From assembly GCA_017506865.1 (NCBI GenBank), contig JAFCMP010000223.1, positions 1,860,001 through 1,924,000 of the forward strand: a DNA stretch of 64,000 nucleotides, given 5' to 3'. This DNA is from Tribonema minus. Taxonomy: Eukaryota > Sar > Xanthophyceae > Tribonematales > Tribonemataceae. The position numbers and the translations under genes are program-made. Under the pieces are notes generated by a model, which saw nothing but the letters and a program-made list of their open reading frames with translations, was not told the origin of the DNA and made no database searches. Positions within the stretch are counted from its first letter, which is position 1, and each line of letters opens with the position of its first letter. Positions 36,325-64,000 of this stretch are shown piece after piece.

Positions 36325-39300
36325 ACAGCAGCACTCAACTTGGCAGCAGCGACGTCTTCAGCAGCACGTGTCACCCCCGGCGCGCCAACGCGCTCGTCCG
36401 CACGCATCAAGAGTGCACCAGACATGCCCGCCTCCCGCGCTCCAGCCGTGGTGCCAATCAAGGTCAATGGTGTGACTGTGCTGCTGGAGTGCCGTTTCCG
36501 GAACATGCCGATGCAGGATTGGCTCAAATACGATGGCTGCCCTCGGTGGGTACATGAGCAGTGCGGCGCAGTGAACTTGCGTGTGAACACTGGTGCGGCG
36601 CAGTGAACTTGCGTGTGAACACTGATGCCAGCAGGTTTCTCTGCCTGCACTGCATGCAAAACGCCAAGACACATGCGGTGGAGCCATCACTGGCGTGTTC
36701 AAGTACCACAGTGGGCGCAGGCATGGGAGCAGCAGGGTCGGCAGCAGTAACCGCCACAGCAGCAACGGCAGCACGGGCGGCAGCAGCAACCGTTTCGGCA
36801 GCAGCAGATCCTGAGACGGCAGCGTCGGCAGCTGCTGCAGGAACGGCAGCGGATCGCGCGGCGGCAGTCGGTTCGGCAGCAGCAGCAGCAGCGGCGGCGG
36901 CAGCAGCGGCAGCGCCATCACTCAATGGCCCGCAGTGGTGCAGCCCGCACTTCTCAGTGGCAACACTGCCACCTTCATTGATGGCCGTCTTCATACAGAA
37001 GAAGGTCAACGGCCGCTTGCAGGAGCTCAACCCCAACGTTTAGCCCGACGAGCTTGTGCACATCAACGTGCCTAGCAATATGGGTACAAGCTTCGACATG
37101 CCGCGCCTGTACAAGGCAGCGTTGTACCCGTTGGCTGAGTCGTCCCAAGTGCGCTACACCAGCAAGACGGTGTGCGCGTACCAGATGGTCGATGGTCAGC
37201 CGGTGCTGGTGCTGGTGCTCTTCTGCCAGGAGTACGGCCTCGACACCGTGGAGGCCAACAAGGGTCGCGTGTACATCGCGTATCTGGACACAGCAGCCTT
37301 CCTCTCGCCAGTAAAAGCTCGCTCATCTGTGCACAAGGAGGTACTGGCGGCGTACCTGGAGTGGGTGGCACGGCGCGGGTTCAGGTACGCGCACATCTGG
37401 TCCTGTCCGCCCAGGCCGAGGGTGGAGTACATGTTCCCCTGCCGTCCAGTGCAGCAGCTGACCCTCACATCGGAGCAGCTGCTGGGCTGGTACCTCAACA
37501 TGCTGGAAACGCGCTGCATGCGGGTGGGCATCAGGACACGCAATGATGTCCGGCTGTTTGTACAGGAGCACATCGACAGAGTCGCGGGGATCGTGCAGCG
37601 GGTCAGCAATGGCGATGCTGCCGCCATGCAGGAGCTGCCGGCGGCGGCGCCGCCACTGTTCGATGGCGACATCCTGCACATGAAGTTCGCCACTGCGGGT
37701 GACGCGTCGCCCACGCCTGCCGTGCTCAAGTGCATCTGCGAGGAGATGCTGGAGTTTAAGCAGACCCCGCTGGTGGTGCCTCTCGCATACGAGTGTGACG
37801 AGCAGCAGAACGACGATGATAGAATGCTCCAGCTGCTGATGGACCCGGTGCGTCTAGCAGATCCGGACGTCAAGCGGTCATTCGAGCCGCTCAACTCACG
37901 GAAGCACTTCATTGCGATATGCTCTGTAAACGGGTTCCACTTCAGCATTCGGGCCTTTGCTGCGCACGCGACCGCCATGCTGCTGTATGCTCAGCACCAC
38001 GCAGAGCGGCAGACGCTCAACCCGCTGTGCCGCAAGTGCGACAAACCAATTGTCGGCACATTTCACCACTGCAACGAGTGCTCCATAGGGCCTCCGTGCC
38101 AGGTGAGACAACAGTGAGGGTAGGTATGCTTATACATATTGATAGAATGTGGACTAATAAGAGGATCAAGCGATCAGAGGGGAAATGATTCTTCTGACCT
38201 CACCTGACTGCGCAGTTCAATGCCACGCCATAGTATCTGCAGGCTTTTGGCTTGCTGCACACCATTCACACGAATGTGGGCTAGATGTACTATCACTGAT
38301 AGCTGGTGCCTGGTGCGCTCACGTGCAGAATCATGCCTCTGCCTGGTATCATCTTAATGTTGAACTTGAAGTGAATGCTAAGCAAGGGTTGACAGTAAGC
38401 AGACGTGCTTGTTGTATTCAGTGAAATGTGCACTCTGACTACATACACCTGAATGCTCAGCTTCCGGCATGGCTCTGCAATGTGACCGGGGCACACAGAG
38501 TGTTACTTGCTACCTTATGCATCGTACAAATGACAACAGTTTCTGTCGTGTTGCTCTGTTGCATACAGTTCTGCAGCGCGTGCAGCCAGGAGCTGGGCGC
38601 CATGTGTCCACAGAAGCACCTGACCGTCCCCTGCTGCAGCAAGTTTCAGCTTTCCGCTGCCGAGATCAAGGAGTGCGACAGTCAGAGCTGCATTGCTCAG
38701 CAGCAGCTGCAGAAGCGCTGGGCAGAGATGCAGCAGCAGTTAGCCGCCAGCAGTTCAAACGCCATGGCTGCTGCGACAAGCGCCCACACTGCGGCGGTGA
38801 CAGCTGCACATGGCAGCGAGATGGCGCCATCTGCTGCTGTCGCTGACGGAGGTAAAGCAGGGGCTGCGAATGGGCTCGTGCTGAGCGCGGCAACTTCGGA
38901 GACTGGCGCCAGCGCTACAGGCACGCCGCAGGTGACGACGCCAGTCACATGCCCTGCTGCAGGGGGAGCAGCTAGCCCCCCCACTCGACGCACGCGCGGC
39001 GTAACAGCGATGGCAGCGAGCAGCAGCCTGAGCACTGCGACAGCGGCAGCAGCAGCAGCGGCAGCGGCAGCGGGCGACAGTGTGGTGGCCAGCTCTGATG
39101 TTGGTGTTGTCGCCGCAGCCGCTGCAGCATCGCAGGAAGTGACGCCCAGAAAGCGTCGAGTCGGGAGGGCGCCCATGGCAGCAGTTGCGGCAATCAGCAG
39201 TACTCCTGTAACGATGGCGGCAGGCGGAGGTGCAGCAACGCATTCTGCTGCTGGCGATTCTGTGGCGATGTCGCAGCAGACCACGCCAGTCAAGCGCCGT

Positions 39301-52300: not shown

Positions 52301-54331
52301 AAGTGAGACAGGTGTCTGGTTTCTGCCAGTCCTCCAACGTTTTTCCCTTTGCTTATGGCAGATGGTCCACAGATCTGCAGCTCAAAGCAGGAACACGCAG
52401 TCCGCAAAGGTGCCCGCAAACTACTGCGCTAATCTGCAGCGCCCTGATCTAGCTGGTGCACTTGGCGGAATCACACATGTCCAACGTTCACTTTTTGCTT
52501 GCATGAGCATCTCGTTTGTCCACGAGTCGAGTAGAGTTGTAACCGACTTTGAGTCGCGGTGAAAAAAGCTCACACACACGTGCGCCGTCGCTAGACAACC
52601 AGGTGGCTCGGTGGATGTCAGGGCCCTCGTCCCTGGTATCGCCGTGGCCTGGCCTCGTCTGCGAAGCTGCGGGCAACGAGGTCGACACATGTCTGTGCGT
52701 GCCGCGCATCAAATAAAACCTCGAGGAGAGCGTTGGCACCTGCCTGCCTGGAGCCTGGCAGGGAGGTGTCAGAGGTCTCCTTCAGGGAATATTTGAGAGC
52801 GGCACCACTAGTGACGACAACTAGCAGGAGCAAGGTGACTGCATGTCCATGCATCCACCGTGTTCCGGGTCGTCCCTGTTGTCCAAAGCACGAGCTCAGT
52901 GTCCTGTGTCGGCAGGTTTCTACTGGTGACCGGAGGTACCATCGCGTTTACCGCCCTGGCCCGGAAGCCGCAGGTAAGCGTTTGCGCAGCTTCTGAATAT
53001 AGGAGACCAGGTGTCGTGAGGTGACATTCCTCACGGCTTCCTGGTCCGGGCCCAGCAGTTTACAAAGTAAAAAAGGTCTGATTCTGGCTGTTTCAGCTGG
53101 CACTTTCTTTTCTGCTGCACAGTGGGGCCCTGGTGTGTGATGGGCGCTGTCTGAATTCATTCGCCCCATTGGTAACAGTTGGCGATCGAAGCAGAGTCGA
53201 TCTGCCGGAGGGCAAGCCCTCTTCTGGTGGAGGCGGGGACCTGCCGCCCCCTCTCCTCCCGAGCTGTTCCTACATTCAGAAGCTTAAGTTTTTAAAATGC
53301 TGGAGGCAATATGTGGTAGGGAAAGCACGGCCTGACAGTATTGTAATATTGGTTGAGACAATGGTGTCAGCGGCCGCGGCGATGGTATTGGACGAAGCGG
53401 CGGTCATGGCGGCAGCAGCAGAGCATCAACAGCAGCGGTGCTGGTTGGTCGATATAAGCCTGCATGTAGTGTGGAACAGAGGCAACACTGGCAGCGATGG
53501 CGCCGGCGGCCGTGGCCACGGCGGTGGCAGCAACGGTGACGCAGCACCGGCAGCAGCAGCGGAGGTCACAGGTGACAGAGTTGAAGTTGCGAGTGGTGGG
53601 GTATCAGCAAGTTACGGCCACTAGGATGACGGGAAAAAGTCGTTGTATCGCGAAGCGGGGCGTGAGATCAGCGGCAATGGCTAGGGAGCTGGGCGTGACA
53701 GCACCAGCAGCAACAGTGCTGGCAATGGCAGCGAGGACCACTGACATGGTAGCAAGCTAGGCAAGTCAGCGAATGACCGACTTGAATGTAACGCCGGTCT
53801 CATTCTACCGCTGCCCGCCAGTCGGCACTTTGTTCACAACCGGGCTAGAGGTTGCTGTCAGGAAGTGGTGATGATCAGGTGAGACCTCACTGTCCAGGTG
53901 CCGGTGAAGCCTAGGGAACAGCATGTGACATGGGTGTGGATTAATTATGTGTGTAAGATTAGGCGCTGTCTCGAGCTGGAGGACAATCGATAATTGGCAT
54001 TAATGCATGCCTAGGTATGTGCAGCTTTTATGTTTTCTGGACCACAGTGTGTTGCATGTTGTTCTGTGAGCGTCCTGATCTCTATTGAGGTTGTTGTTGA
54101 CTCCATCTGTTAAGCACTTCTGCTGTCATTTGTTGCCTGCTCTGTGTGTTGTCTGGTGGTTTGCACTGCGTGCATGCCTGTATGAATGAGTGTTCACTGC
54201 GAATGCTGTATCTACCCTGTCGTGGTATTTGCTGTTGTGTGATGCATGTTGCACTGTAATTGTGGTTGCTTCTGCTGCGCCGTCTATTTTGATATTTTCT
54301 TGTGTGTGACTCTCTGCCTTAATTGCATCAG
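49388..54331. other. Unassigned region, microsatellite and low-complexity frames
   Basis: No gene is recognised. Contents seen: an (AT)n tract at 51898-51917; a short duplication of ACCACTGAAGTCGATA near 52003-52030; a Gly/Ala-rich plus-strand frame at 53360-53620 that looks like low-complexity DNA; and open minus-strand stretches at 52183-52854 without family motifs. Missing WDR43 5' exons and the GH26 5' exon or signal peptide are expected somewhere in this interval. Confidence 0.4.
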
Positions 54332-57300
54332 GCCACGGATGAGCCCATCAATGACTGCTTGCGACCGCTACAGCCAGGCAACATCAGCCTACTGGTGAAT
54401 GACAACGCTCACTCGCTGCCGTTCGCTGTTCGCAACTGCAGATATCCTTTTCTGGTCAAGCCCTACCTTGACCAAGGCTTTCAGGTGTGCAGTCAAAAGG
54501 ATTGAATCACATCATGTGACGACATGTACATGCTCCAAGTGACACCAGTCACACGTGTGGTCGCTGGCAACCACAGCATCTGTTTGTGAAGTCTCGATTC
54601 TGCATATCACAGTGTCTGGCAAACTACAGTTTTCCTGCCTAGCATGTGCAAGAACAGGTAGGGTTCACTCAAGTTGCACTTGCATGTCATGCGTGCCTAC
54701 TTACACCATCATTGAATTGTGTTGTGTTATTCTTGTTCAGACATCAACACACCAATATAGTACCTGTTTGCGTTGTTGGTCCTGACATGGAATGGCAGCA
54801 ACTTTGGCTTTGCCAACCCAGGGCACTTGACTTAAGCTCTGCTCAATTTGCCATGCGCTTTGCCAACCGCTACTGCATCGAGAAACCAGTAGTACCAAAT
54901 AGTCCCGAGATGCCATTTGGCGGCGGCGGCGTTTGAGTGGTTGTCGTTGAGACACTTTCAGGCTGTCACACGACATGTACATAGATTCCGTACAGCACGC
55001 TTCAAGTTAGATGCCATTCACGTTTCGCGCCTTGAGCGAGAATCGACAAAAAGTACCAAATAGCAGGAGAATCCTACTTTCAATCATGCTTCATGGAGGT
55101 TTGAACTCACACCCAATGTGCCTGCCTGTATTGCCAACACTTGTGGTTTGGAGCACCAGCTGACGCTCGATTTGCAGCAGGTTTGCTTCAGCAGTAGGCC
55201 GACAGTCAGTCTTGACAAGTGCCACACTTGCAGCACAGTTTCTTGTTATAAGTGTTGTTCTTGGTGTGCATGTACACGCCGCCGCATGTTGCAGGTGGTG
55301 ATGGTGACGAAGTTTCTGGACAACGAGCTGCTGACAAATCTGTGGCAAATCGGAAGCGGCAAGTACGACAACTACCTGTACCAGTTCATGGATGAGCACA
55401 AGGCTGATGGCAACCAGGAGGTCTGGATCATGTTAGTAAAGTGCATTTAACGGCAGGTTCAGAACACATTTTGATAGGTGCCCGGCGGTTGGCGCACTGG
55501 TGTGCATATTTTAACATCTGTTAACCACAGCTTCAGCGCAACAGGCGCGTGCAGGATACAGCGGCCCTGTAATAGCAAGCAGGTGGCACCGCATCTGCAA
55601 GTTGAGGTTGCATGTGATGATGCGTCCACAGCGCGTTCTGTTAGTGGATGTTTATGAAGGAGTGGGCTGCAAGGACGCGCCAACTTTGTATTTCTTGTTG
55701 ACATTGCACTGCTGGAGGGTAAGGACGGTGGGCCAACTGCACAGCTGCGGCTCTGTTGATTGGTTTGAACTCTATCCCGAGAGCAATAGTGCACATGAAT
55801 CCACAATAACGACCTTAAGGACAACAATCGTCAACAGTGTCCTCACCTGTACATGGTCTTCTATATACGAAAACACACCTTGAGTGAAGCTCTGTAAAGA
55901 ACTGTCATGAGCGCCCTGAGTTCAAAAGAGGTCGCAACGGCTGCTCGTGACGAGATATTGGCGCAGCAAGCAATTTATACATGCCCTGACTGTGGAGCCT
56001 CAACGAGCACATGCCTACGTGCTGCTGCATTCTGAATGCACTTTACTCAGCACGCCTATGCGCCTGCGCACTGCTGCTGCAGGCCCATGCACGAGTTCAA
56101 CGGCGACTGGTACCCGTGGGGTACGTACCACGGCGGCTTCAACTCCAAAAAGAACTTCGTCCGCGCCTGGCGCCACGTGCACGATGTGTTCACCGTCAAG
56201 GAGGCCAATGTCATATTCCAGGTGAATCATTGCCGCAAAGCAACATTGACCAGCAAGCCCGTCCACACATCACCAAGCCAATGCCCGCTTTCAAAACATT
56301 TCCTAGGCACATGTCGCTCTTTGCGCAAGTTGTGACTGTTAACTGAGCTCTTTGACTGTGTCAACTGAAGGATGTGCAAAACTTTTAAGTCACTTATTCG
56401 TCACTGTCTAGACTACACTGCTCTGTGTCTGGAAGACTGATCTGGGCTCAGTCATGACTGTTGACAGGGTTCAACAGAACTCATGTGTCTGGAAATGTGC
56501 GCCAACTTGTGAAGAACTCAAAAACTCACTGAAACACTGAAGCAGCAGCCACCAAGCGGTAGTGCCCCTCCTGCTCCAAAGAGCGCCGCCAGTGCTCGTC
56601 CCACCGCCATTTCGATCCGCTTTTTTCGTGCGCTGGCACTATGTATATGCATTATATTGTCGCTGTGGAAGAGGCCCGTTCTAGGCTCACATGACTGAAG
56701 AGTTCATGTCTGTACAACGCTGCGTCTATGTTACCTGGCATCACCAAGCTGTCCTACTTAGAAGCAAGATTTACATCAAGGAGCCCATATCACATGCCAC
56801 ATCTTCAAAATGAATTCATGTCTTCGTACTGTCGTCAATTCATTGTGTCGCTCTTCAATGCACAATCAAATCGAAGCTCTCACAGCGTAGTGGTTGAATC
56901 GGCACCAACGCACACTTGAGGCTTTCACTTACTGCATTCACTCCAACACTTGTCAATTTTTTCCAAAATGTACTCTTGCTTTCCATGATCAGTCTGACCA
57001 CATCTTTGCCGTGCCGCATCGCCAGCTTGTGTGCATTTCGCAACCTGCAAGCGTTACGCTGCATTCTGCTCGGCTCTCTCTCTGTCAGCTCGCCTGCAAC
57101 TGCGACAACGGGCAGGACGATGTGACCATGCCCCCTTCACGGACTGGTGGCCAGGCATGAACTACGTGGACATGGTGGTGTGCAGCGGCTACAACCGCGC
57201 TGGCACGGATGAGAACCACATGGAGTGGCTCACATTCCAGGTATGAGGCTGTTTCATAGCTCAGTGAAGCGTCACTCCATTGGCATTACTCTTGAACTTC

Positions 57301-60300
57301 TATTGCAGCCTCGCTGCGCATGCGGCAGCTTTCACGGGAAAGCCTCTGGCTTCCGATCATGGGTTACATGATGTAAGAGTGATATGCGCGTCGCTGTTGA
57401 GGTGTGGCTTGGAGCTGACGAGTTTTGAAGATTGCGTTCGCACCCAGCTTTTTGGTTACTGGTGATGTGGTGACACCGTCAACAACTCACCACCTTTCCT
57501 CCAGGGTCTCTATGAATCACACGTCTGGCGCAGCACCTTTAACTATGGCGGTGGTGCAGCATACACATGCTCTGGGGCCATTGCACACACTTGCATGCAG
57601 GGGGGGGGGGGGGGGACAGAATGGCACACCGTCTATCAATGAGGCATGCAGCATATGGCAGTCACTGCATATGCCTGCACACGCACCACGCCCCAAAGGC
57701 CGTTCATGATCACTTTGTGCTGATCGTTTGAAGGCAGCTCCTCAGCAGCACAGTCCATTCCTCTCCTCATGCTGAAGCTGGCTGCGTTTGCCCCCCTTAC
57801 TGCGCGCTCTCAGGACGTGTATGGCGCGGCGTATAAGCAGATGCTGGCGCTGCCGGGCTACAAGCCTCTGGGCGTGGGGGAGATGAGCTGCAATGACTTT
57901 GAGGGTTATGACAAGGTGAGCTGTCGCCGTTGTGATTGTGACATTTTTTTTGGATTCCATCGGCTTGAGAAAAGTGCTGGGCTCGCACCGGCCCATTCAT
58001 TTAGCGGTGGGTTCTCGGTGGCATGGTGGGTGGAAGTTCCAAGCGTGCGCATGCTTGAGCATGATCACGATGATGTTGCGTGAAGCTGTGGATAACCTCT
58101 AGCCCTCACTAATTGCAGACGCATCATACATAGTCATTTGATGAGTTGCTGAGAGCCTTGTGTTTTTAGTGCATCTGCACATAGTGAGCTTGCGATGGGT
58201 GGCAAGTGTGTGCACTGACGTGAGTGCCTTCACTGTCGCACGTGGCGCTAGACCAGACCAGAACAGCGAAAATTGATGTTGATCACGAGAAGACATGGAA
58301 CCGTAATGTAATGGCCATCCTCAAAGCATCGTCGCAAGTGCGTCGAAGGATACCATACAACCAGGGCTAGCGTCTACATCGAACCCCTCGCGCCAAAACG
58401 GTTGCGCCAGTTAGTGGCGCCAGTTGCGCCCCGCTGGCAGCCCAAGTGACTCATGGCACAACTGGCAATACTCGCAAGTATACTTGTGAGTATTGCTAAT
58501 TAGGTACTCGTGAGTCTACTTGCGAGTCCTGCCTAGGGTTAGAGTCGTTGCTAGAGTAAGCCGGACCTTGACTGTAACCCCTGCCCTTCTGGAAGTGCTG
58601 TGGGCTTAATTGTGACTGTAGAAGCACTAGAAGCCTTAATAAGACATGCGCCTCTTGCGCCATGGCTAAACAGGTTGCCTGGCTAGAACCTAAGCGCCTG
58701 TTACGCCAAGGCCGTCTGAGTTTAACTGGTAACCCTGCATACAACCGCTGCGTGCTGACACTGAACTGAAGACAAGAACATGAGTGAGGTTCAGATTTCA
58801 ACAGCGCCATCATCCAAAGATAAGACTTGTGCGTCCATCATAATGCAGCATGTTGCTGTGGGCCCTGCTGTGCTGGCAGCAGTCTGCGTTTTATAGGACA
58901 TGTTAATGACGACATCGATTACTGCTAGGCCTCAGAGAGAACGCACATCCCTATCAGTAGAGGATGGAGCCCGTTGCACATTGCAATGAGGTGATGCTTT
59001 ATCACACAATCATGATCAAGTGACAACACTCGTTGCAGATGACTCAATAGCATATGCAGGCGATAAAGCATATGCAGGCGATAAAGCATATGCAGGCGAT
59101 AACGCATTTCGATGATGGAGGCATCTCGCGCGATGCTTCATATGTTGCTACAGGCTTACCGTACTGTACATGCGATGCTTGGACTCACATCAGTGCAGCT
59201 CTGCGCACTCAAGTGCCATGTCTTGAGTGTTGTTGCGATGACGATTTCCAAGTCTGCCCCGAAGTTTTCAGGACTATGTTGAGCTGTTTCCGCTGCCACC
59301 ATATTTCGGAGCCAGCTCACCTTAGTCATTGATTGCCCGGCGTCTGTGGCTTGCTGTGCAGGCTCAATGGATCACGGACGCGTTCTACGACTTTGTCAAC
59401 ACGTACCCGCGCGTCAAACAAGCGTGAGTGGTGTATTAACCTACAAAGTATTTACGCAGGGCGTTGTGTTGCTACATCAGCATTTGTATTGTAGCAAATG
59501 CTTGTGCGGTTTCACTGGTTATTGCCACTTGCTAGCCGGACTTCCAAGGCATCACGTCACATCTGTAGAGAGGTGTATGTGGCCGCAGTGCAAGCTAGTA
59601 TGAACCTTGTGATACACCATGGGACCCTGGAACCTAGTGCCGTCAATTTTTTCTGGCGCGTCACCGCACAAGTGGCTACCAGCAGTGATTGTTATCATGG
59701 GCACCTTCTTGTGCAATTTCACACAGCGTAGTCTATTGTGAACACCAGCCAACAACCTGTGCCTGCTGCATGCACCTTTGCCCATGGGTCATGAACCGCT
59801 GAATTTCCCAGCATCATGTGTAGTCCAACTTTTCGAAAGAACGTCACTGGCACTTCCACACCTGGCTCAAGCTGCCCCCCCCCCCCCCCCCCCCCCCTCC
59901 CCTTTCCACATCCACGCTCCGTGTCCGCGCAGCACCTGGTACCTGCAGAACAAAGACGGCGACTGCCGCTGGGACCTCAACTCGCCCGAGCAGATTGCGG
60001 CGTTTGCCAACGGCCTCAAGCTCTACGCGCCGCAGAACCAGGTGCAGACGCTGCTGCCCCTCCTGGCGCCGCTGGCCCATGTCAATTTCGACGGCGTAAT
60101 CAATGGCGACGAAGCCCCCTCACCTCCTGGCGCCTCTGGCCGACATTAATTGTGACGGGGTGATAGACCAGAAGGACGCGGTCGGCGCGCCCGCAGCGCC
60201 GGGAGTGCCGGGCGTGCCGGCCAAGCCAGTGGTGGTGGGGCAGGATTTGAACGGCGATGGCCAGATCTACGGCCCGCAGGAGCTGCCCGGCGACTTCGAT

Positions 60301-61581
60301 TACGACGGGGAGGTGAACGGCGAGGACGGCGTCATCGCGGGGCAGCAGGTATTATGTATGTATGCAGGGCTGCTCATGTGTATATATGCACCCCCTGCAT
60401 CAGAGCTCGTGCTCATGCTCACGCGCTCAGGCTGCCGAGCTCGGCGCCCCTATGCGGTCATTCCCTCAGCACAGCCGTGCAGAGATCACAGTCAGAGCAT
60501 TCTGCATACTTGGGAAGTACGGCAGTACCAACTGCGAAGTTTGCCTCGAGGCTCAGCCGTGCATGCGCCCGTCACCGACAATCCCACGCAACGACGCGGC
60601 TCGTTCAGCGCCAGTTTTGTTAATGACATAAGTACGGGTAGCAACGTAAGTATGCGAAATGACGCAAGTATGCAGGATCTGGGTAATGCCGGCTAATAAC
60701 GGCAAACCCTAGTGACTGCAATCCTACGCCTGGCCCTAACCCCCCTGACTAGGAGGAGGTAAGAATGTGCTCTAGTGCAATGTGCTTGACAGAGCACGCT
60801 AAATACCATCAGGAACTACTGCGTGGCTGCCATGCTCAGGTCAATGCATGCAAATGTGACTACTAGCTCTACCATGAGTGTTTGGGTACACAGTGTCTTG
60901 ATTTCATGTACGTACTGCCAGTGTATGAGTACACATTGTCATGATTTCATGTACGCACTGCCACGCAGATGCCATTTGCAAACAAGAACTGCAAAGAAGA
61001 CACGCCGAGGCAGTAGCGGCACTCCCAACCAACCTGACCGCCAGCAGCAGCAACACTCGTTGTGCACAGCATCCACAAGTCAATCTTATTCTCTGTCCTA
61101 AGCATGATGCCTCTCGCCACTCTGCAATAGAGCAGCCACACTGCTCACACGCAAGCCACGTCATGCCCCTCGGCAGAACTGTGACGAGCGATTCGGGCCC
61201 GAACGGGGCCCGACTTCCTCAAACCCTTTTTCAGGTCGGGACCTAAACCCCTACTTGTTTTCAAGCCCTAACCCCCCTAACCCAACTTAGATGAAACTCT
61301 AAGCCGTCATTACCGCAAGTATGTACGATCCGGGCTAATGACGCCATAACGCGTACGTACCTACCCCCTGGACCCGTCAACACTGTTCAGCGCAGCACGC
61401 ACGCACGCCGAGATCTGACGCGTCCCGCGCTTCTCTGCTGTACCCTGCGCAGGCCGATTACAACGGCGACGGGGTCATTGCGGGCATCGACCAGCTGCCC
61501 GGCGACTACAATGCAGACGGTGTGGTGGACGCGAACGACGTGCCCCCTGCGCCCGCGCTGCCCGGCGATGTGCCTGTGTGA
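54332..61581 (+). CDS. GH26 (beta-mannanase-type) glycoside hydrolase with dockerin-like Ca-binding repeats
   Basis: GH26 enzymes hydrolyse beta-1,4-mannan and related glycans. Exons: 54332-54484, 55295-55431, 56083-56221, 57089-57240, 57814-57915, 59362-59423, 59933-60348, 61453-61581; joins agree in phase. Motifs: QVVMVTKFLDNEL and SGKYDNYLYQF; the acid/base Glu in PMHEFNGDWYPWG; WRHVHDVF; NCDNGQ; TDWWPGMNYVDMVVCSGYN; the nucleophile Glu in PLGVGEMSCND; DAFYDFVNTYP and WDLNSPEQIAAFANGLKLY. After the catalytic domain come repeated DxNxDGxxxxxD loops: HVNFDGVINGDE, DINCDGVIDQKD, DLNGDGQIYGPQ, DFDYDGEVNGED, DYNGDGVIAGID, DYNADGVVDAND. These resemble dockerin type I. The end is DVPV and TGA, or further exons follow. 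Two C-run frame breaks (near 57128 and 60114) are described in findings. The first exons and any signal peptide were not found. Confidence 0.88.
54903..55051 (+). mobile_element. SINE-like repeat copy C flanked by a 12-bp target-site duplication
   Basis: The copy is flanked by AGTACCAAATAG at 54891-54902 and 55052-55063. It shares GAGATGCCATTTGGCG, GAGACACTTTCA and GAGCGAGAATCGACAAAA with copies at 27895 and 23375, and ends in an A-rich stretch just before the second target site. That structure suggests target-primed insertion of a short retroposon. It sits in an intron of the GH26 gene. No tRNA-like promoter boxes were recognised. Confidence 0.75.
59875..59897. repeat. C homopolymer (23) at an intron 3' end of the GH26 gene
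   Basis: An uninterrupted run of 23 C lies about 35 bases before the acceptor of exon 59933-60348 and forms part of its pyrimidine tract. Other long runs are 48400-48414 (15 C), 57600-57615 (16 G) and 63299-63323 (25 G). Confidence 0.95.
60061..60188 (+). repeat. 64-bp duplicated dockerin-loop unit in the GH26 exon
   Basis: TCCTGGCGCC at 60061 and 60125 begins two similar units, each encoding a LLAPLA.(H/D)(V/I)N.DGVI loop. The spacing of 64 bp is not a multiple of three. Each unit therefore reads as a good calcium loop only in its own frame. Confidence 0.85.
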
Positions 61582-62010
61582 GCACGTATGTGAATATACT
61601 CTGACATGTGTATATGTTTATCTTGTATGCTCTTTTAGTTGCTGTCTTGCCGCACCAAAGGCACCTGTCCATTGTTTGTTTTATGTGCATCTGTGATGTG
61701 GTTTCGTGGTGTGCAAACAGTGATATGACTGTGATAAGATACACAGATAACATGCTTGGTTAGCATATACGTCAGTGCCAGTTGCACATATGACACGACG
61801 TGGATGTGCTGCAGAGTCTCTTGCAGTATGCTAGTATAGCTCCATTTGTCATGCTCGATGAAACCCGGTGCAAGCACTAACCCATAAATGATTGGGAATG
61901 GCTCAGGAGATCAGGAACACATATGATACCGGCGGCGCGCGCGACGGCGCCGCGCTCCGCGGCAGGCATCACACTGCTCAGCAGAGGCAGTGCCAGTTGC
62001 AAACATGTCT

Positions 62011-62384
62011 ACAAACCAGCATGTTCACGAGCCGCAGTCAACAGCAGCAGCAGCAGCCGCAACGGATTATCATCAACAACAGGCGCAGCGAAAAATTTGG
62101 TGTATTATGAACATGTGCCACAGAGGAAGCTGTGTTCTTAAGCGCTGCTTGCCGTCTTGCTGAATCACACTCGAGGCACAGCTACATTGATATATTTACA
62201 AACCAGCATGTTCACGAGCCGCAGTCAACAGCAGCAGCAGCAGCCGCAACGGATCATCATCAACAACAGGCGCAGCGAAAAATGTGGTGTATTATTAACA
62301 TGTGCCACACAGGAAGCTGTGTTCTTGAGCGCTGCTTGCCGTCTTGCTGAATCACACTCGAGGCACAGCTACATTGACACGGCA
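62011..62384. repeat. 187-bp tandem duplication with a CAG run
   Basis: The copies 62011-62197 and 62198-62384 are almost identical. Each begins ACAAACCAGCATGTTCACGA and contains (CAG)n followed by CAACGGAT.ATCATCAACAAC and CTTGCCGTCTTGCTGAATCA. They differ at a handful of bases. The second copy runs into a plus-strand open frame (IVVLEGVLARLAKHTLVPRL) that ends at 62492; I do not recognise it. Confidence 0.93.
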
Positions 62385-62878
62385 CAAATTGTTGTACTCG
62401 AAGGCGTCCTTGCGAGGCTGGCCAAGCACACACTCGTGCCACGGCTGCTGGACGAGAGTGCTGGCGTTACCAGTGGCGTACACATTACATAAACGCGGAG
62501 GTGCCTGAGGTACCTCCATGGCGGTGCGCTCCTCCGCGGTGCGCGCCGCCCAGTCCCCGCCCCCCCCCCGCCGTGAGCCACATCCTGCGTCGAGGAGAAA
62601 TATGCCTCAAGAGCCACTGGACGCACTTCTCCATCGCTAGCGCGTTGTGGGGCTCGGTGGACTCGAGAAGCACACTAGGGACTCCGTCATCTCCCGCACC
62701 AGGATCATGGAGGGCAAGGGGTCGACGACTCTGGTTTTTCTTAGACTAGCACCAGCCACAGTAAAGGCTCAGCCACGGCGGCGACCGGCCCTGAGCCCCG
62801 TGTATAGCCAATGTAGACCGCCGGTCCCGTGGCGTCATACTCTGCGAAGTAGTCTGTGGCTGTGGCCATGGCGATGAT

Positions 62879-63202
62879 GTGCTGGCTGCAGCCACTCCCA
62901 CAGGCGACTGGAAACCTGATGGAATCGTCGATGCCAACGACGTGCCGCCCGCCCCTGCAGTGCCTGGGGCCCCTGTTGCCCCTGTGGCGCCCGTCACGCC
63001 TGTGGCACCCGTTGCGTCTGTTGTGCCTGTTGCCCCTGTCATGCCGGCAGTGGTGCCTCCTGTGCCCGTAACGCCAGTGCCGCCGCCTGCCGGCGGCGAT
63101 CTGAACGGCGACGGTCAGGTCAACGGCCCTGATGAGCTGCCGGGGGACTACAACTATGATGGCGTTGTGGACGCCAACGACGTGCCGCCGCCCCCCGTGT
63201 AA
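62879..63202 (+). CDS. Second dockerin-like cassette with Pro/Val-rich linker
   Basis: This open frame encodes a first half-repeat GDWKPDGIVDANDVPPAP. A linker of about 45 residues follows, made of PVAPV/PVTPV units, then two calcium-loop repeats DLNGDGQVNGPDELPGDYNY and DGVVDANDV, ending PPPPV with TAA. It is very similar to the end of the GH26 gene (DYNADGVVDANDVPPAPALP). It may be a further 3' exon of that gene or the last exon of a tandem paralogue. I found no donor in the 61453-61581 exon whose phase joins it directly. The antisense frame (Gly-Ala-Thr, collagen-like) is a shadow of the Pro/Val linker. Confidence 0.75.
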   Translation: MLAAATPTGDWKPDGIVDANDVPPAPAVPGAPVAPVAPVTPVAPVASVVPVAPVMPAVVPPVPVTPVPPPAGGDLNGDGQVNGPDELPGDYNYDGVVDANDVPPPPV

Positions 63203-64000
63203 GCAGCGGCAGGGGGTAGGGCTATTATTTTTGATAGTGCTGGAGCCAGTGGCACCGGCCTACTGCTGCGACTGACACAGCCCCACAATGCCGCACGAGG
63301 GGGGGGGGGGGGGGGGGGGGGGGCACATCGACTGGGAACGTGGGGGGGGGTATACAGAGCAGCAGACAGCGAGGCGCCCTCCGTCCGTTAAACACACTGC
63401 CGCATTACTTCGTGCCAGGTGGGCGGCCGCCTTCCCATCTGCAGCGTGCTCTGCTGCTACTGGCGGGGCCCACAGAGCCTGCGCTGCGGCTCAACAGCAA
63501 TTGCAGCAGCCCGCAGCTGCTCTGTTGTTCTATTGTTTTGTGTCAGGCGGGGAGATGGTGTAAGACTTGGGAGCGAATCGACATATGGTAGAAAAGCAAT
63601 GCAGGCAGGTCTGCCGCCTCTGCAATGTGTCATGCATGGGGCCGATAGGGGCAGAGAGAATATAGTTGTGGACTGTTGATGGATGCCATTTAAGTGGGTT
63701 ATTTTCCTCTAAGACTTATCACTCAGGATGGCACAGGCGGTGGGCGAGCATGAAGAAGTGCCGCTGTCTTGCACAGTTCGGGCCGCGCCAGGACACCCAC
63801 GTAAGACCTGTGTCTCGGAACAGAGCAACAGCGACAGCTTTCCATTTTCATCCGTTGTGCAAATTAAATTATCCCTCTTGGAGTGGAACAGACAGACCCT
63901 GCTGGCTCTGGACCGACAAAGCGTTGCCTACGGCTGGGATGCTTAGTTCCCCCCTCTTTCACCGTGACAGATCCTTTTAAGATCAGATTACATCCCATGG
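63203..64000. other. Window end: G homopolymer and a possible exon
   Basis: After the TAA at 63202 there is a 25-G run (63299-63323). A plus-strand frame at 63728-63946 (MAQAVGEHEEVPLSC, ending SVAYGWDA) could belong to a downstream gene, but no family or splice support is seen. Confidence 0.3.

Follow-up and report, generated by a model that had tools for sequence, protein, structure and literature searches.

The window analyzed here, a stretch of 64,000 nucleotides from the alga Tribonema minus (contig C223, positions 1860001-1924000; assembly of 158.2 Mb in 554 contigs), raises the question of what is encoded at its positions 54332-61581. An initial annotation, made from the letters alone, had described this locus as an algal nuclear gene for a mannanase-type enzyme of glycoside hydrolase family 26 (GH26) with a dockerin-like tail. 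Our analysis leads to a different answer. The window copy is read as a duplicate that has decayed and lost its 5' end; the intact form of the gene would encode an anchored or secreted GH26 β-glucanase of the lichenase (CtLic26A) type with a calcium-stiffened tail as a tether, an account that we favor with moderate confidence.

A genome search with the window exons revealed a close copy on the minus strand of the same contig (C223:2041613-2047547), with tail pieces just beyond it. This paralogue lies approximately 125 kb from the window copy in inverted orientation. The main blastn pieces between the window and the paralogue region were 72-91% identical and extended from 54317 to the window end, and upstream of 54317 the window had no similarity to the paralogue region. 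A sequence-only gene model of the paralogue (C223:2048325-2039670, minus strand) predicts nine exons, eight introns that are all GT-AG, and an uninterrupted protein of 724 amino acids. The predicted protein starts with a basic stretch leading into a hydrophobic segment at approximately residues 27-46, located by eye, and continues with a 157-residue stem rich in proline, valine, alanine, threonine, and serine, the GH26 domain, and the tail, the final stretch of which is one open exon.

When aligned to the paralogue, the window copy shows eight recognizable exons with seven introns between them (Table 1). Every intron is GT...AG, and the paralogue borders coincide with those of the window copy, which bears out the earlier statement that the gene has at least seven spliceosomal introns. 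The gene is indeed eukaryotic: bacterial contamination was rejected because the intron positions are common to the paralogues and because the window contains an exon of a KAT11 histone acetyltransferase. The proposed gene start at 54332 did not hold. Positions 54332-54441 were rejected as an exon and are probably intronic, as judged from the paralogue and from three copies on contig C121, whose match to the supposed first exon starts only at RYPFL.

With a broken frame in exon 5 and in exon 8, and without exon 1, the window copy as assembled encodes no intact protein. Since the paralogue is needed for the comparison, this damage was not visible to the initial annotation. No counterpart of exon 1, which carries the start codon, the hydrophobic segment, and the proline-rich stem, was found in the window, where tblastn matched only proline- or alanine-rich low-complexity sequence. 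The split final codon of exon 3 is AGG in the paralogue and AT+G in the window, so that the conserved arginine preceding the acid/base glutamate has been replaced by methionine, and the donor of the same exon has changed from GTAAGT to the weaker-looking GTTAGT. The insertion in the tail exon introduces an early stop codon, TGA, at 61579-61581; position 61581, taken earlier as the gene end, was therefore rejected as the natural end, as exon 9 continues behind the insertion. The inserted DNA is bordered by GGCGA at 61564-61568 and 62903-62907, and 62204-62904 is similar, in antisense, to a 258-codon open frame on contig C543 (L055; 69% identity). It looks like captured gene DNA. An internal direct repeat of 181 bp (62010-62190 and 62197-62377, 97% identical) is also present in it. 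From 62903 to 64000, window and paralogue region share 87.7% identity. We regard the gene in the window as a probable pseudogene, a damaged 5'-truncated duplicate that is otherwise ordinary.

Table 1. Features of the window copy, in window coordinates.
Feature	Position	Strand	Basis or remark
Duplicated block, homologous to C223:2038500-2048400 (inverted)	54317-64000	+	5' edge inside paralogue intron 1
Part of the first exon of the initial annotation; probably intron rather than coding	54332-54441	+	Paralogue splice of exon 1 to ...CTGCAG GTATCC (RYPFLVKPYLDQGFQ)
Exon 2 (YPFLVKPYLDQGFQ)	54442-54484	+	Aligned to paralogue exon 2; AG before, GT after
Exon 3 (VVMVTKFLDN...EVWI)	55295-55431	+	Aligned to paralogue
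Exon 4, acid/base Glu (HEFNGDWYPWG; Glu codon 56093-56095)	56083-56221	+	Paralogue alignment
Exon 5, +2 frameshift within C run 57131-57135	57089-57240	+	CCC in paralogue, CCCCC in window
Exon 6, nucleophile Glu (GVGEMS; Glu codon 57880-57882)	57814-57915	+	Paralogue alignment
Exon 7 (AQWITDAFYDFVNTYPRVKQ)	59362-59423	+	Paralogue alignment
Exon 8, covering the last part of the GH26 domain and calcium loops 1-4 (loop 1 degenerate, H for D)	59933-60348	+	Paralogue alignment
Exon 8 frameshift, net +4 bases	aligned ~60132-60135	+	Paralogue alignment
Exon 9 up to the insertion, with two calcium loops	61453-61568	+	Paralogue alignment
Insertion of 1,334 bp inside tail exon	61569-62902	+	Not in paralogue
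Remainder of exon 9, with a Pro-rich linker, two strict calcium loops and a degenerate one, and the stop codon TAA	62903-63202	+	Both exon 9 parts are one open exon in paralogue

The assignment to GH26 with both catalytic glutamates was confirmed. The Pfam GH26 profile gave 23.9 bits with the window exon peptides and 30.6 bits with the paralogue (cut-off 20.2), both glutamate codons are present (Table 1), and R97, H100, E101, and E216 are invariant in a six-row alignment of algal GH26 sequences. The mannanase designation, on the other hand, was rejected on the grounds of a similarity ranking and of two active-site columns. Among solved structures, the best phmmer match of the paralogue domain was endoglucanase H with 135 bits, all other GH26 chains reaching at most 31 bits, and 82 of the 227 aligned residues (36%) are identical. 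This chain (PDB 2bv9, a GH26 module of Clostridium thermocellum) we take to be the lichenase CtLic26A. The six-row algal profile gave 179 bits with the same chain, 62 with the next GH26 chain, and 52 with the best chain named a mannanase. It is this ranking that carries the lichenase reading.

Several specificities are placed in separate branches of GH26 in the pertinent section of PMC6556568, lichenases in a branch of their own, and the same section names His-136, Arg-197, His-200, Phe-207, Tyr-263, and Trp-314 (BoMan26B numbering) as subsite −1 residues conserved in four compared mannanases. We compared the corresponding columns in 30 rows, two IMG/VR rows included, with an identical result in five MAFFT settings. 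The column of the SWHP histidine, equated with His-136 from the motif and not from a structure, contains glutamate in 21 of the 22 algal rows (glutamine in L051) and in CtLic26A, and histidine in the three bacterial SWHP-type rows. Similarly, the phenylalanine column contains tyrosine in all 22 algal rows and in CtLic26A, and phenylalanine in the three bacterial rows. The algal rows lack the His-136 and Phe-207 that mark the mannanase branches A/B at subsite −1, and are nearest to CtLic26A both by sequence and in the tree.

The earlier description of the tail as six or more loops of the dockerin type I kind stood in part. The window contains seven strict D-x-N/D-x-D-G motifs, five of them inside 54332-61581, so that six or more are reached only with degenerate loops or with those beyond 61581. 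In the paralogue tail there are nine strict loops, at residues 500, 520, 554, 570, 590, 606, 627, 691, and 707, a number that none of 10,000 shuffles of the same tail reached (maximum 4). Elsewhere in the family, we counted one strict loop and a degenerate second one in the copies on contig C113, 7, 1, and 12 strict loops in the C121 copies, none in L051, and one in L052. The profile searches proposed with the initial annotation gave scores over the cut-off for dockerin as well as for GH26: with Dockerin_1 (PF00404, cut-off 22.9 bits) the first window tail piece scored 23.8 bits and the paralogue 23.3 bits, the second window piece remaining below.

The calcium loops are thus in place and the Pfam cut-off is passed, but the dockerin reading was rejected because of the loop spacing and the sequence between the loops. 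The steps between the paralogue loops are 20, 34, 16, 20, 16, 21, 64, and 16 residues, 16 being the step within pairs; Pro-Gly or proline-rich sequence follows the loops, and the 34-residue step is itself proline-rich. Type-I dockerins are described in a passage of PMC4728124 as two F-hands that contact cohesin at positions 11, 12, 18, 19, 22, and 23, the latter in the helix. Judged from its sequence, the tail has no such helix after each loop. Within pairs there is no room for one, because the next loop starts 16 residues on, and positions 18-23 fall on the start of that loop. Seven of the eight best Dockerin stretches listed span only 13-16 of the 57 profile positions, corresponding to the calcium loop, and the eighth, in the L045 tail, spans positions 3-44. 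The best PDB match to the tail was weak (dockerin chain 6kg9, E-value 0.0022, most of the chain length aligned), and 33 residues separate the loops of 6kg9 when counted from the alignment.

Other searches with the tail gave no further family. Five tails searched against Pfam up to an E-value of 10 matched no thrombospondin model and no EF-hand model over the cut-off (best 20.8 against 25.4 bits), NCBIfam gave no matches up to an E-value of 1 for tail and domain, and a 152-residue tail piece had no match among phage records. As for the cohesin docking partner suggested earlier, an intron-blind search of the genome with PF00963 at the default limit gave no matches, one of 14 control genomes being matched. 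The genome search with PF00404 at the same limit was equally empty; both nulls are weak, because the latter missed even the tail exons of the window. We read the tail as not a true dockerin: it appears to be a series of bare DxNxDG loops set in proline-rich sequence and devoid of F-hand helices.

The window gene belongs to a large family. Among the matches listed, 118 exon-wise pieces were grouped into approximately 66 GH26-like places, a count that is uncertain in both directions, since the search was exon-wise, some matches are weak, and some places are perhaps allelic. Near-identical GH26 genes were seen on contigs C90 and C179 in the same order and with similar spacing; these regions may be two alleles in the assembly. 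A midpoint-rooted tree was built from 22 of the places, CtLic26A, and five bacterial rows; L058, L060, and L061 are long rows in it, and L051 and L052 are gapped, as some of their exon pieces were not picked up. Of the extracted sequences, L015 was left out as a fragment, L022 for its near identity to L023, and L013 because it is the same place as L004. The tree, which the initial annotation had called for, united all 22 algal rows in a single clade (100/98), beside lichenase-type bacterial GH26s: CtLic26A and two Actinomycetota rows share one side of a split with the algal clade (100/97). The nine members of the window's own clade grouped together (100/99).

The gene structures vary across the family. 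The catalytic domain of the C223 and C121 copies is split at common positions, those of C121 being judged from match ends, and in the three C113 copies (L048-L050) exons 3-7 are fused into one open stretch with a short loop tail. In the other two clades, the domain of the members that were read lies in one match without introns, and L019 has one stop. The paralogue preserves the order of catalytic exons followed by tail, and the same order is seen in two C121 copies out of three (the third, L046, yielded the first loop only), in agreement with the earlier view that the repeat exons and the catalytic exons form one gene. Among other members, L050 has an apparent cleavable signal peptide, L022 (C179) and L023 (C90) contain two GH26-like domains per open frame, the first without the HE motif, and L012, L014, L017, and L024 form a separate clade with a cysteine-rich leader.

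Horizontal transfer followed by intron gain had been proposed for the gene. A bacterial-type origin is plausible from the tree, and later intron gain would fit the family, although intron loss is possible too. When bacteria were scanned with the algal alignment, 18 pattern matches yielded five relatives, too few to point to a donor; the corresponding viral scan yielded two relatives from 17 pattern matches. The IMG/VR contigs L068 and L069 are bacterial-looking and filed as viral, and in them a lichenase-like GH26 lies near a frame that resembles a GT2 glycan synthase by eye. In a bolder history, the alga would have received a lichenase-type GH26 from bacteria in a single event, perhaps along with a dockerin-like end of two loops. 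The gene would have expanded into dozens of genes that gained introns, and in one clade the helices of the loop end would have disappeared and its repetition would have produced a calcium rod free of helices. The outcome would be a wall-anchored glucanase of a new kind, with a past resembling that of cellulosome enzymes and no cohesin. We regard this scenario as a long shot.

For the intact enzyme, we propose that it would act at the cell surface, cutting or remodeling a β-glucan in the wall or matrix of the alga itself. The first substrate candidate would be mixed-linkage glucan, a reasonable one because the relevant part of a review (PMC7997180) reports this polymer from the walls of several algae, brown and red ones among them. 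The tail loops would bind calcium outside the cell, and the tail could then form a stiff, protease-resistant tether rather than a dockerin, which would act as a spacer for the enzyme or attach it to acidic material of the wall. Probably the tail started out as a short end of the kind present in the C113 copies, with one strict loop and a degenerate one, and lengthened as loop pairs were duplicated.

Several points weigh against this account. Gene model and function are both predicted from sequence, and the choice between a membrane anchor and a cleaved signal for the N-terminal hydrophobic segment was made by eye. Lichenase type is the best reading of the algal GH26, but mixed-linkage β-glucan as its substrate would be carried over from relatives at 36% identity. 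An alignment without the two IMG/VR rows, as well as the phmmer alignment, puts the algal glutamate four columns off that of CtLic26A; the assignment of this column therefore depends on the alignment that includes them. Of five isolated tails, three pass the Pfam Dockerin cut-off with 38.5, 33.6, and 33.5 bits, scores that sum several short stretches, and two stay below it with 12.4 and 11.3 bits. A single-sequence structure model of one tail piece was set aside at a predicted local distance difference test score of 51, with no secondary structure. In favor of decay, a relative-rate count with a C121 copy as the outgroup, from which the split arginine codon and two codons at the exon 5 lesion were omitted, gave 10 nonsynonymous and 8 synonymous changes on the window branch (ratio 0.31) and 2 and 9 on the paralogue branch (0.05), with 6 synonymous changes unassignable to either. 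This contrast is, however, marginal (Fisher p = 0.064), and both branches depart from neutrality (p = 0.015 and 0.00002). The decay looks recent, or may be partial, because nonsynonymous changes are fewer on both branches than neutrality predicts. In addition, the +2 change in the C run of exon 5 could be a sequencing error, and a shortened product of the window copy may still be in use.

The last points would also suit a functional window copy, in which the lesions are sequencing errors or are bypassed by splicing, a new upstream exon provides the start, and the shortened tail, ending in DVPV, is natural. The average constraint on both branches, the GT...AG borders kept in all seven introns, and the homopolymer context of the +2 change agree with this, but the +4 change lies outside a homopolymer with substitutions alongside it, the insertion and the loss of exon 1 are independent events, the arginine ahead of the acid/base glutamate is gone, and no exon 1 homologue was found in the window; a functional copy is accordingly rather improbable. 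Still more improbable, to the point that we give it hardly any credence, is a working secreted GH26 mannanase whose dockerin tail docks to a cohesin-like wall partner. Such an enzyme would account for the GH26 catalytic residues, for the Dockerin_1 scores of the first window piece, the paralogue, and three isolated tails, for 6kg9 as the best, if weak, structural match over most of its length, and for the one loop step (34) near dockerin spacing. That step is filled by proline-rich sequence, however, and in the 16-residue pairs the next loop occupies the contact sites 18, 19, 22, and 23; besides, seven of the eight Dockerin stretches are limited to the loop, the relatives are lichenases and not mannanases, the frames of the window copy are broken, and the intron-blind genome search found no cohesin. 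Less remote, yet still unlikely, is that the family acts on another polymer (for instance xylan, glucomannan, or a glucan of mucilage or storage) or digests food particles in a phagotrophic alga. The separate GH26 branches with their several specificities (PMC6556568, in the section cited) leave room for this, and the approximately 66 places, some with cysteine-rich leaders or doubled domains, suggest varied roles, but among solved structures the tail-bearing clade scores highest with a lichenase, and stem and tail fit a surface-bound enzyme.

Elsewhere in the window, an exon at 37044-38114 on the plus strand matches Pfam KAT11 (E-value 1.2 × 10−17) and belongs to a histone acetyltransferase of the p300/CBP-like type, and an Rfam scan of the window gave no matches. 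Two antenna proteins of the genome were compared with PDB, and 9vfj was first in both cases. The next matches were ACPI/CAC chains for one protein and a mixture of 9kc5, ACPI/CAC, and more 9vfj chains for the other, with chains from green organisms lower down. As the ACPI/CAC chains are presumably cryptophyte, the alga probably has a red-lineage plastid.

If the lichenase-type account of the intact gene is true, an alga with a red-lineage antenna has a large family of lichenase-type GH26 enzymes in eukaryotic form, which points to mixed-linkage or related β-glucan in this alga. Literature searches for GH26 in Chlamydomonas, green algae, Chlorophyta, haptophytes, and cryptophytes, and for dockerin in green algae, gave no such enzyme among the matches listed, nor was the combination of hydrophobic anchor, proline-rich stem, GH26 domain, and helix-free calcium-loop tail found among them. 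The part of PMC6032398 on green-algal GH9 cellulases describes dockerin domains as absent from the algal enzymes. It would also follow that Pfam Dockerin can pass its cut-off on repeated bare calcium loops, and that eukaryotic "dockerin" labels need a check for helices and cohesin.

Among known systems, dockerin type I (PF00404) shares with the algal tails the DxNxDGxxxxxD loop, the C-terminal place on a glycoside hydrolase, and, in some tails, the Pfam cut-off. The algal tails differ in having one to about twelve strict loops, a proline-rich context, and no F-hand helices; moreover, the nine paralogue loops lack Ser-Thr at loop positions 10-11, and the genome gave no cohesin match. According to the part of PMC3123361 that treats them, Dx[DN]xDG motifs are spread over many unrelated settings, most of them extracellular. 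Those outside EF-hands, for example in thrombospondin type 3 repeats, are likewise extracellular loops without EF-hand helices, but the five algal tails match no thrombospondin type 3 model and have proline-rich linkers between their loop pairs. On the catalytic side, the GH26 β-mannanases (CjMan26A, CjMan26C, BoMan26B, and others) have the family and the catalytic glutamates in common with the algal enzyme, but their similarity to the algal profile is far weaker (about 30-52 bits) and two subsite −1 residues differ. The IMG/VR contigs L068 and L069 share HE-NGDWYPWGT with the algal enzyme and carry GH26 near polysaccharide-making genes; they are bacterial-looking, their two translated GH26 frames have no calcium-loop tail, and glutamine occupies the histidine column. 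WpsE of Actinoplanes is likewise a GH26 in a polysaccharide-making context, as described in a portion of PMC13390465, the likeness being one of context. The closest known system is CtLic26A, which shares with the algal enzyme the RP-HE-NGDWYPW acid/base motif, glutamate in place of the SWHP histidine, and tyrosine in place of the mannanase phenylalanine. CtLic26A is bacterial, and the algal enzyme goes beyond it with a hydrophobic segment at the N-terminus, a proline-rich stem, introns, and the calcium-loop tail.

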